DNA from: a virus
IMG/VR virus record: IMGVR_UViG_3300020176_000107
Coordinates: 1 to 22,086 of that record
Reading direction: 5' to 3' (one strand)
Length of the DNA stretch: 22,086 bases
Part shown: piece by piece, positions 3,493 through 11,543 of the stretch
How the letters are laid out: every line of letters begins with the position of its first letter
Position numbering within the stretch: position 1 is the first letter of the stretch
Translations under genes and position numbers: made by a program
The notes under the pieces: generated by a model
What the model saw: only the letters and a program-made list of their open reading frames with translations
What the model was told of the DNA's origin: nothing
Database searches by the model: none

Positions 3493-3711
3493 ATGGGAAA
3501 CGCATACACACTTGAAGAAGTAGAGCAGGAAATCAGCCAGACGTATCAGTGGTTTCACCGGGAGGCGGGCGTGACGGTTTATCCTCGTGAGGAGGGGCAC
3601 CTGGGGTCGCTCTGGGCGTTGCATGATCTTCTTGTGGAGGATCGCCGGGACGCCTTGACTGCTGAAGAGTTTAAGGCGGAGCATGGTCGCGGTACACATG
3701 CAGTAGACTAG
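3493..3711 (+). CDS. Hypothetical protein, 72 aa
   Basis: ATG 3493 lies one base after the upstream TAA, suggesting translational coupling with the HslV-like gene; a GGAG (3474-3477) lies in the end of that gene. The protein is acidic and helical (YTLEEVEQEISQTYQWFHRE, then LGSLWALHDLLVEDRRDALT) with no membrane segment or cysteine. It is the last gene before the structured gap in front of the terminase operon. I do not recognise the family. It could be a partner of the protease by proximity, but that is only an inference. Confidence 0.6.
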   Translation: MGNAYTLEEVEQEISQTYQWFHREAGVTVYPREEGHLGSLWALHDLLVEDRRDALTAEEFKAEHGRGTHAVD

Positions 3712-3715
3712 TAAC

Positions 3716-3772
3716 GACGGGGTTCCCTCCCTTCCCCCGTCACAGAAACGCACCTTCCCTCCCTTGGGTGCG
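3716..3772 (+). repeat. Twin hairpins with an identical 11-nt pyrimidine loop
   Basis: Hairpin A: GACGGGG (3716-3722) pairs perfectly with CCCCGTC (3735-3741). Hairpin B: CGCACC (3749-3754) pairs perfectly with GGTGCG (3767-3772). The stems are unrelated, yet both loops are TTCCCTCCCTT plus one base (3723-3734 and 3755-3766). Neither is followed by a T-run, so they are not ordinary terminators. The loops carry CCTCC, the anti-Shine-Dalgarno core, and can pair with GGAGGG in front of the small terminase gene. Confidence 0.6.
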
Positions 3773-3776
3773 GATA

Positions 3777-3817
3777 CCCCCTCTGGTTGTAGGCATTGCG
3801 CCTCCTGGAGGGGGTTT
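3777..3817 (+). terminator. Terminator-like hairpin before the terminase operon
   Basis: CCCCCTC (3777-3783) pairs with GAGGGGG (3808-3814) across a 24-nt loop, followed by TTTCACTTTCT. The loop is long and the T-run is short, so termination may be partial. It ends the rightward accessory unit and precedes a promoter-like hexamer. Confidence 0.5.
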
Positions 3818-3832
3818 CACTTTCTCTCGTAG

Positions 3833-3838
3833 TAAACT
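3833..3838 (+). promoter_or_regulatory. Promoter -10 candidate for the terminase operon
   Basis: TAAACT within TAGTAAACTAGGG matches the hexamer and 3' flank of the motif at 1739-1744 (TGATAAACTAGAG). It lacks the TG at the extension position. It lies after a terminator-like hairpin and 129 bases before ATG 3968, implying a long 5' leader. Confidence 0.4.
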
Positions 3839-3845
3839 AGGGGTA

Positions 3846-3967
3846 AGCCGAAAAAGGGTTTGTAGTAGGTGTTGCCGTCAAACCAGAAACCCTGCGGGGG
3901 TGACCCCAAGACACAGGCTCGAAGTTCGAGTGCTTACTGTTAGGGCGGCAGACGTAGAGGAGGGTTT
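3846..3967 (+). promoter_or_regulatory. Folded 5' leader of the terminase operon
   Basis: About 120 nt with two mutually exclusive stems: AGGGTTT (3855-3861) with AAACCCT (3887-3893), or GGTTTG (3857-3862) with CAAACC (3879-3884). A GGGG-TGA-CCCC hairpin and the perfect palindrome CTCGAAGTTCGAG (3918-3930) follow, and then the strong ribosome site GAGGAGGG (3957-3964). Switching between the stems could matter, but no ligand or known RNA class is recognised. Confidence 0.35.
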
Positions 3968-4483
3968 ATGGGTGAGTTGGAAGAGTTTGAGATTGATAGC
4001 CGTATCGAGAAGCTGATTTGGCGGTCTATTGGTCGCAAGTCGGTTCGGAAGATGGCTGAGGAGACGGGTCTTCCGGTTGAGACGGTTGCGCGTATTCGCA
4101 CCGAGCTTTTGGATGGGGTGGATGAGCTTACGATTGACCAGAAGCGCACGAAGCTTCTCGTAGACCTTCAGGATATTGCGGATACGGCCCGGAGTGACTA
4201 TGACAGTGCTGATGATACCGATTCGGGTTCTAAGCTTCTCACGGTGGCTGTGGGGGCTATTAAGACGGTGTTGGGTGAGATGCGTCAGATTGAGAAGTCT
4301 AGTAGCGGGGCTATTGACGCTTTGAACCAGATGCGTATTCGGGAGCTAATGCGTTTGGTGGACACTACCGTGACCCGCACGTTGGAAGAGGTCGCTACTA
4401 CGCATGATTTGGAGTTGACGGAGCTTCTGGGCATCTTCCAGTCTCACCTCATTCCCGCAGCACGGGAGCTTGATTCACGTTGA
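3968..4483 (+). CDS. terS: Terminase small subunit
   Basis: ATG 3968 follows GAGGAGGG by three bases, one of the strongest ribosome sites here. The 171-residue protein has an N-terminal helix-turn-helix (about residues 13-45, IGRKSVRKMAEETGLPVETV), the DNA-recognition part that binds the packaging site. A long helical, acidic central and C-terminal region, probably the oligomerisation domain, follows. It overlaps the large subunit gene by four bases, which is the standard arrangement. The call rests on the HTH, the size, and the unambiguous large subunit immediately downstream. Small subunits diverge quickly, so family identity cannot be fixed from sequence alone. Confidence 0.8.
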   Translation: MGELEEFEIDSRIEKLIWRSIGRKSVRKMAEETGLPVETVARIRTELLDGVDELTIDQKRTKLLVDLQDIADTARSDYDSADDTDSGSKLLTVAVGAIKTVLGEMRQIEKSSSGAIDALNQMRIRELMRLVDTTVTRTLEEVATTHDLELTELLGIFQSHLIPAARELDSR

Positions 4484-11040: not shown

Positions 11041-11047
11041 CCCCCTT

Positions 11048-11107
11048 CCCCCGCTAGAGAAGCCCCCGAGGACTTGAAACCTCGGGGGTTTCCCGTTTCT
11101 GCGGGGG
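11048..11107 (+). terminator. Strong nested terminator after the capsid gene
   Basis: A perfect 9-bp stem, CCCCCGAGG (11063-11071) with CCTCGGGGG (11080-11088), has an 8-nt loop and is followed by TTTCCCGTTTCT. An outer stem, CCCCCGC (11048-11054) with GCGGGGG (11101-11107), can enclose it. It should boost capsid transcript stability and reduce read-through into the connector genes. Confidence 0.8.
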
Positions 11108-11126
11108 TTCGTGAGGCCGGCCCCTG

Positions 11127-11150
11127 TGATAAACTGGTAGGTAGTAGGCT
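11127..11150 (+). promoter_or_regulatory. Two promoter-like motifs after the capsid terminator
   Basis: TGA-TAAACT (11127-11135) is identical to the motif at 1736-1744. A second hexamer, TAGGCT (11145-11150), repeats the sequence seen before two other genes but has TAG in place of TGN. They follow the capsid terminator and precede ATG 11172, so re-initiation is needed here. Confidence 0.5.
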
Positions 11151-11171
11151 TACCATCAAGGAGTAGTAAAT

Positions 11172-11357
11172 ATGGCTTTTCAGCCCGTCCCCCTAGAGCA
11201 GAAGTCGGGAACTCCCAACGCATTGTTCGCCCCCGTCCCCGTAGACTACCCCCTGGACCCGGTTCTGGCGGCCCTCATTGACGCCGGTTTCGGCTCCGCA
11301 GGTGAAGTGCTCGCTACGAACAGTACGGGCGACGGCTTCGAGTGGGTCACCCCGTAG
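11172..11357 (+). CDS. Small hypothetical virion-region protein, 61 aa
   Basis: ATG 11172 follows CAAGGAG by eight bases. The protein is Pro-rich at the start (MAFQPVPLEQKSGTPNALFA) and ends in AGEVLATNSTGDGFEWVTP. That tail resembles the GQVL.aTGDG..W phrase found at domain junctions of many phage fiber proteins. The fiber-like reading frames begin three bases after its stop, so it may be an adaptor or a detached N-terminal module of a head or tail fiber. Helical content is low. Coding status is well supported by the ribosome site and the re-initiating promoter; the role is a guess from context. Confidence 0.6.
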   Translation: MAFQPVPLEQKSGTPNALFAPVPVDYPLDPVLAALIDAGFGSAGEVLATNSTGDGFEWVTP

Positions 11358-11360
11358 GCC

Positions 11361-11543
11361 ATGACTAACTTTCTCGGGGGCGTCGTTCTAGTAGACCCGT
11401 CCGGGGAGCCCTACGCCGTGGGGAGTCCCGTTGACACGCCTATTGGCATCGGCGCGCTCGGGCACCCTCTCGGCCAAGGCCCCATCAACGGCAATTTCAG
11501 GTCTCGCCCGGTGGGGTATCGAGCAGGCAAACGTGGCCTTTAG
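11361..11543 (+). CDS. N-terminal fragment of a fiber-like protein (frame 1 of a split gene)
   Basis: ATG 11361 lies three bases after the previous stop, with only a weak ribosome site. The first half, MTNFLGGVVLVDPSGEPYAVG, is a typical opening of phage head/tail fiber proteins (LVDPxGxPY). From about residue 25 the translation turns Gly/Pro/Arg-rich and ends in RPVGYRAGKRGL, which looks like out-of-frame sequence. The +1 frame over the same DNA reads SARSGTLSAKAPSTA and continues as a LamG-like domain. The simplest view is a gene whose two parts are joined by a +1 shift, or one broken by a small deletion. It could also be a real 60-residue protein. Confidence 0.45.
   Translation: MTNFLGGVVLVDPSGEPYAVGSPVDTPIGIGALGHPLGQGPINGNFRSRPVGYRAGKRGL

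Follow-up and report, generated by a model that had tools for sequence, protein, structure and literature searches.

The α-r14/NfeR1 'cuckoo' RNAs of Alphaproteobacteria (RF02344) are described as three hairpins that present an identical unpaired anti-Shine–Dalgarno (anti-SD) sequence, CCUCCUCCC, on highly different stems (PMC10746234, PMC7143759). B11 of Actinobacteria is reported to repress mRNAs with G tracts through two C-rich loops (PMC10470900), and sX13 of Xanthomonas (RF02232), a structured, Hfq-independent small RNA (sRNA), to direct three C-rich loops at G-rich motifs near starts (PMC3771888). For the Gram-positive UCCC-motif sRNAs RNAIII, RsaE, LhrC and SprD, a loop-exposed UCCC is described as pairing with Shine–Dalgarno (SD) regions (PMC3861533, PMC4132741). 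Actinobacterial phages are reported to express abundant non-coding RNAs of unknown function (PMC5712189, PMC10986025).

Here we analyse a virus record from IMG/VR, a stretch of DNA 22,086 bases long (the window). Its segment from 3716 to about 3825 is, to judge from sequence, probably an autonomous phage sRNA gene whose anti-SD-like loops would block SDs in trans. In literature searches we found no account of a phage RNA of this kind. The candidate is small and well bounded, with a concrete, testable mechanism, and phages LeeroyJenkins, WaterT, Lifes, BarnCat and Cassita are in hand on M. paraoxydans.

Layout of the candidate RNA in the window

The preliminary description of this locus proposed that two unrelated stems, GACGGGG/CCCCGTC and CGCACC/GGTGCG, share one 11-nt loop. 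Both stems are present and correspond to the predicted fold of the + strand. An 11-nt sequence, TTCCCTCCCTT, is indeed common to the two loops, each of which is 12 nt long by perfect pairing (TTCCCTCCCTTC in hairpin 1, TTCCCTCCCTTG in hairpin 2); RNAfold adds a U-G pair to hairpin 2, leaving a 10-nt loop. A terminator directly 3′ of the hairpins and a promoter-like box directly 5′ of them had been missed. The features of the locus are as follows.

3493–3711, + strand: upstream ORF of 72 aa, ending 4 nt before hairpin 1
3704–3709, + strand: promoter-like −10 box TAGACT (a TANNNT box), separated from hairpin 1 by 6 nt
about 3716, + strand: transcript start predicted from the −10-like box
3716–3741, + strand: hairpin 1, GACGGGG/CCCCGTC, 7-bp stem (3716–3722/3735–3741), loop UUCCCUCCCUUC
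3749–3772, + strand: hairpin 2, CGCACC/GGTGCG, 6-bp stem (3749–3754/3767–3772) plus U-G, loop UUCCCUCCCUUG
3776–3825, + strand: intrinsic-terminator hairpin ACCCCCTCTGG...GGAGGGGGT, then T-rich tail TTTCACTTTCT
3833–3838, + strand: second promoter-like box, TAAACT, between the hairpin RNA and the small terminase gene
3957–3964, + strand: SD region of the small terminase gene, GAGGAGGG, complementary to the loops
3968–4483, + strand: candidate small terminase (TerS) gene, 171 aa, the conserved downstream neighbour

The common loop sequence occurs exactly twice in the whole window, both times in the loops of this hairpin pair. When the window was shuffled 100 times with its dinucleotides preserved, one shuffle contained a pair of hairpins, each with 6 bp or more and both within 120 nt, that had at least 7 loop bases in common; the real pair has 11. 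The whole unit, 3713–3825, is unusually stable (z −4.04, 0/200 shuffles); over the seven units folded, z ranges from −3.8 to −5.65, with 0/200 shuffles for each. Stability is not unusual for the stretch 3690–3800, which cuts off the terminator (z −0.54), and the minus strand folds worse than its shuffles (z +1.67). In the modelled structures, stable hairpins expose C-rich, anti-SD-like loops.

The TerS candidate lies directly 5′ of the large terminase gene (TerL) and is 38–48% identical to genes 22 of LeeroyJenkins and Cassita. On the other side, the 72-aa ORF is not kept as a neighbour in other lineages; its start region matches LeeroyJenkins gene 17. Elsewhere in the window, about 390 nt (11041–11430) are without a convincing long ORF and contain a promoter-like TAAACTGG at 11130.

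Distribution and conservation of the element

Searches by BLAST and with the terminases pointed to isolated Microbacterium phages of cluster GB and to metagenomic contigs, and in both a promoter-like box, two hairpins and a terminator precede TerS. A single descriptor, applied to all 20 TerS-side loci, found the C-rich-loop hairpins in tandem, together with a −10-like box, at 15. Three of these 15 are contigs almost the same as the window and three are cluster GB phages that do not differ from one another in the gap, which leaves about nine versions of the element that can be distinguished. Every relative that has the hairpins has a counterpart of the terminator. By the same descriptor the element is absent from the TerS side of L120, L121, L124 and L126 (in L126, TerS was assigned by position, as the ORF preceding TerL), and L119 has only 86 nt of sequence upstream. 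L124 is without it although its TerL is 79% identical to that of the element-bearing contig L117. Loci identified solely from a large terminase have it in 0/17 cases; of 29 TerL loci, the upstream scan covered those of the window lineage together with L014, L016, L022 and L029. Lifes is known from a BLAST match only.

Element loci were located through terminase genes. Pattern scans of viral contigs (36, 40 and 4 stretches) recovered as true elements the window-lineage contigs, L059, L118 and L092 (which is the L117 contig); the remaining stretches were without the fold or its context. A looser descriptor finds tandem C-rich hairpins elsewhere too, with three more in LeeroyJenkins and seven more in Cassita. 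No relative of TerS or TerL was found in a prokaryote genome collection. The terminase searches also returned a record named Stenotrophomonas virus Jojan60 (L076), whose large terminase is 49% identical to that of the window and, among the matches listed, closer to it than those of Arthrobacter and non-GB Microbacterium phages; its host label may deserve a check.

The versions are of two types. In the A type, LeeroyJenkins, WaterT and BarnCat have AGCGGGATCT-TTCCCTCCCTTCG-AGATCACCGCT as hairpin 1 and GCGCC-TTCTCCCG-GGCGC as hairpin 2, followed by the terminator; Cassita and L059 carry a variant of this form, and L117 and L118 present the same loop 1 on different stems. The B type (L125, L129, L137 and L150) has GCGAATT-CCACTCCCAC-GATTCGC or variants as hairpin 1 and GTAGGC-TCCCACCCCTCCT-GGCCTGC as hairpin 2, with the terminator after it. 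Loop 1 of the A type retains UCCCUCCCUUC intact in all five lineages (window, LeeroyJenkins, Cassita/L059, L117 and L118). It is not the same in the B type, the two having only YUCCC in common, and outside the window lineage loop 2 is unlike loop 1; this core, UCCC with a preceding pyrimidine, is found in every loop of every version.

Stems vary at nearly every position, and the partner varies too: in hairpin 1, the second pair from the loop is GC, CG or TA and the third GC, TA or AT. Because MAFFT put the stems out of register (alignments A5 and A7; in A7, 75% paired, rising to 88% on a slide of +1), loop-anchored arms were counted by script, and 35/35 stem pairs in hairpin 1 and 25/25 in hairpin 2 were standard. 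The arms were picked because they fold, so this complete pairing is by construction and not itself evidence; the information on pairing lies in the variety of pair types and in an arm-exchange control. When 3′ arms were exchanged between lineages, which are not all independent, standard pairs fell to a mean of 21.2 (maximum 30) for hairpin 1 and 17.5 (maximum 22) for hairpin 2, with full pairing in 0/1854 and 0/44 rearrangements. The comparison supports the earlier proposal that selection acts on the loop and on pairing, without regard to stem identity: across relatives the stems have changed and the loops have been kept. The reverse case, stems kept and loops lost, was looked for, and the opposite was found.

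The element is also independent of the sequences beside it. Compared with one another, the B-type contigs are 96–99% identical across the RNA, hairpin 1 to terminator (87–96% for the element by MAFFT, with a 20-nt promoter stretch included). Identity of the TerS coding DNA is 93% for the pair L129/L150 and 58–70% for the other five of the six pairs, and upstream DNA aligns only with many gaps, at 31–47% (MAFFT values, preferred here as global identities are crude for flanks). The upstream ORFs of L125, L129 and L137 differ in the protein they encode, and L150 has no called ORF there; in the A type other than the window, the element follows a gene-21-like ORF. Cassita keeps the LeeroyJenkins element and upstream genes with a large terminase only 27.5% identical to that of the window. 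The RNA is thus tied to the sequence of neither neighbour. In the alignments the unit persists amid divergence of the stems, the upstream genes and much of TerS. In Cassita (L075, 2463–3000), DNA similarity to LeeroyJenkins stops just after the terminator, marking a mosaic junction.

In every version, a TANNNT box (a copy of TARAMTRG or related) ends 5–8 nt before hairpin 1. TARAMTRG has nine matches on the + strand of the window, against a mean of 1.2 (maximum 5) in 200 shuffles, and one on the other strand; the corresponding counts in LeeroyJenkins are 17 against 3. The copies in the window lie mostly 13–40 nt before genes. Within 80 nt upstream, the motif precedes 12/43 forward genes versus 1/81 reverse genes in LeeroyJenkins, and 12/45 versus 1/79 in Cassita. 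It is likely to be the phage's own late promoter class, present also in these two phages; in three long B-type records it shows no enrichment relative to the reversed control (7 vs 9, 11 vs 9 and 8 vs 10). Copies at window positions 1739, 6972, 12124, 13971 and 16684 (+), often as TGATARAMTRG, stand before genes. The box before hairpin 1 lies 191–264 nt from the next gene start in the two phages checked, and in the window and the A-type relatives with the gene-21-like neighbour it shares sequence with the final codons and stop codon of the preceding ORF. A −35 box was not found for this promoter-like site. The evidence that the RNA has its own promoter consists of the motif and its spacing; the intrinsic terminator is clear. 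Just before the TerS −10 box, LeeroyJenkins has a long inverted repeat (GTGTTAGAT...ATCTAACAC; L003, 5149–5210) that looks like an operator on the TerS promoter, and other, different repeats occupy that place in L117 and Cassita.

Candidate targets and competing explanations

Under the preferred explanation, RNA polymerase would start at the base of hairpin 1 and produce a compact RNA of ~100 nt with stems closing both ends. Its C-rich loops, in which the YUCCC core reads CCCUCCC in the window lineage, would pair in trans with G-rich SD regions of phage and/or host mRNAs, and this pairing would block ribosome entry. The RNA may appear with the late genes, as the matching promoter motif suggests, and its targets may include TerS, either in trans or within a read-through transcript. 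The anti-SD reading given in the preliminary description fits: the loop CCUCCCUUC resembles the 16S anti-SD tail, CCUCCUUUC.

Complementarity to loop 1 over 6 nt or more is found before 27/124 genes in LeeroyJenkins and 33/124 in Cassita, against ~5 at random positions. Shuffled loops of the same composition do nearly as well, reaching the observed number of 6-nt matches in 75/300 and 38/300 cases, so tuning of the loops to SDs is not shown beyond their C-richness. Reverse-strand genes have stronger predicted pairing with loop 1 (p 0.018 and 0.0034) and with the anti-SD as well, and the difference between the two does not separate reverse from forward genes significantly (p 0.88 and 0.34). A late sRNA that silences early genes was rejected for want of such a loop-specific preference. 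The broader idea, that a late sRNA of lytic actinobacterial phages mimics the anti-SD tail, retunes translation of early phage and host mRNAs and arose independently of the bacterial families, is possible but doubtful; it would amount to a phage-borne cuckoo/6C-like regulator, broadly active as virion production begins.

Might the loops instead act in cis, pairing with the TerS SD in read-through RNA and keeping the gene silent until the downstream promoter fires? The preliminary description had suggested that they mask GGAGGG, which it placed correctly at 3959–3964 in front of the small terminase gene. We folded the read-through RNA with and without loops free to pair in eight cases: the probability that the SD is paired to the loops is 0.40–0.85 in seven relatives and 0.00 in the window, where the SD is taken up by other local structure. 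Masking is therefore predicted for the relatives and not for the DNA on which it was proposed, and any fold of this kind is prone to pair C-rich loops with strong SDs. In complementarity to loop 1, the TerS SD ranks 1/124 in LeeroyJenkins and, on a hand list of 25 genes, 1/25 in the window (2/25 for loop 2); taking all + strand ORFs of 60 aa or more, each with its best start, it ranks 10/59 there, and in Cassita its rank is 19/124. With a rank that is not consistently best, TerS was rejected as a dedicated target. Obligatory read-through masking was likewise set aside: a strong terminator and the separate TAAACT box at 3833 intervene, the Cassita rank is low and the RNA seems to carry a promoter of its own. 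We consider the cis switch unlikely. These mixed results for TerS favour a trans-acting RNA with SDs as its targets, TerS possibly among them.

That the C-rich loops are displayed to an RNA-binding protein of host or phage, as a sponge or assembly site and not for mRNAs, is also improbable. A constant loop on free stems is equally expected of a protein site, and the known actinobacterial phage non-coding RNAs of unknown function (PMC5712189, PMC10986025) are in keeping with it; there is, however, no candidate protein, and the change of loop between A and B types preserves SD complementarity (YUCCC) and not one longer site.

We hold it very unlikely that the hairpins and terminator are a plain mRNA 3′ end that protects the upstream operon transcript, with loops that regulate nothing. 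The element does start a few nucleotides from a stop codon in the window, L117, L118 and LeeroyJenkins, but neither the conservation of loops on free stems nor the near-fixed spacing of the promoter box behind a changing upstream ORF is explained in this way, and both rule against it.

A DNA packaging or processing signal close to the terminase genes, also raised in the preliminary description, is extremely improbable. In its favour, the element adjoins TerS in all found cases, though these loci were found through terminase genes. Against it, the element is kept in Cassita despite the distant large terminase, folds stably on one strand only and lies kilobases from the genome ends of cluster GB phages, which are terminal repeats (LeeroyJenkins genes 1–6 recur as 127–132, and direct terminal repeats are reported for BarnCat, PMC12776033), so that a cos or pac site at a packaged end is rejected, for the window by analogy with these two phages only.

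Comparison with described RNAs

No Rfam family reaches its threshold in a scan of the element. Units of four lineages gave sub-threshold matches to the bacterial sRNA families anti-hemB, ar14, sX13 and Pseudomon-1/ErsA, plus unrelated families such as miRNA precursors, all compatible with chance. For the LeeroyJenkins unit, ar14 is the permissive match of lowest E value (15.5 bits against a gathering score of 58.8, E 0.6); the sX13 match of the L117 unit scores 11.9 bits against 50; and 6C (RF01066) gave no match in the four units even at E up to 10.

6C RNAs are defined by loops with six or more consecutive C, and 6C/B11 RNA has a terminator downstream. The phage element resembles 6C/B11, as described, in its two C-rich loops and its downstream terminator; it differs in being carried by a phage and in having CCCUCCC where those RNAs have one C run, and six or more consecutive C are not found in its loops (for example, UUCCCUCCCUUC). 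With sX13, on the published description, it has C-rich loops in common, which in sX13 are directed against G-rich motifs near starts; sX13 differs in its 4C/5C loops and its place on a bacterial chromosome. The UCCC-motif sRNAs are alike in the UCCC presented by their loops; they differ in belonging to Firmicutes and in having other architectures. The abundant non-coding RNAs of actinophages D29, L5 and WC1 are, like this one, phage-encoded in actinobacterial hosts (PMC5712189, PMC10986025); as those reports describe it, the L5 right-end transcript is without an evident terminator, and they give no account of anti-SD loops.

The free-stem, fixed-loop pattern is that described for ar14/cuckoo, seen here across A-type lineages with UCCCUCCCUUC. 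An identical CCUCCUCCC in all loops, with hypervariable stems, is not found: the phage loops read CCCUCCC or CACUCCCAC/CUCCCACCCCUCCU. Unlike the cuckoo RNAs as they are described, the element is phage-encoded, belongs to an actinobacterial-type host and has two loops plus a terminator. By analogy, it would work on the principle of α-r14, sX13, B11 and LhrC, without being shown to be a member of any of them. If the preferred explanation holds, it would be an example, encoded by a phage, of the anti-SD RNAs with fixed loops and free stems that are described in bacterial chromosomes and plasmids.
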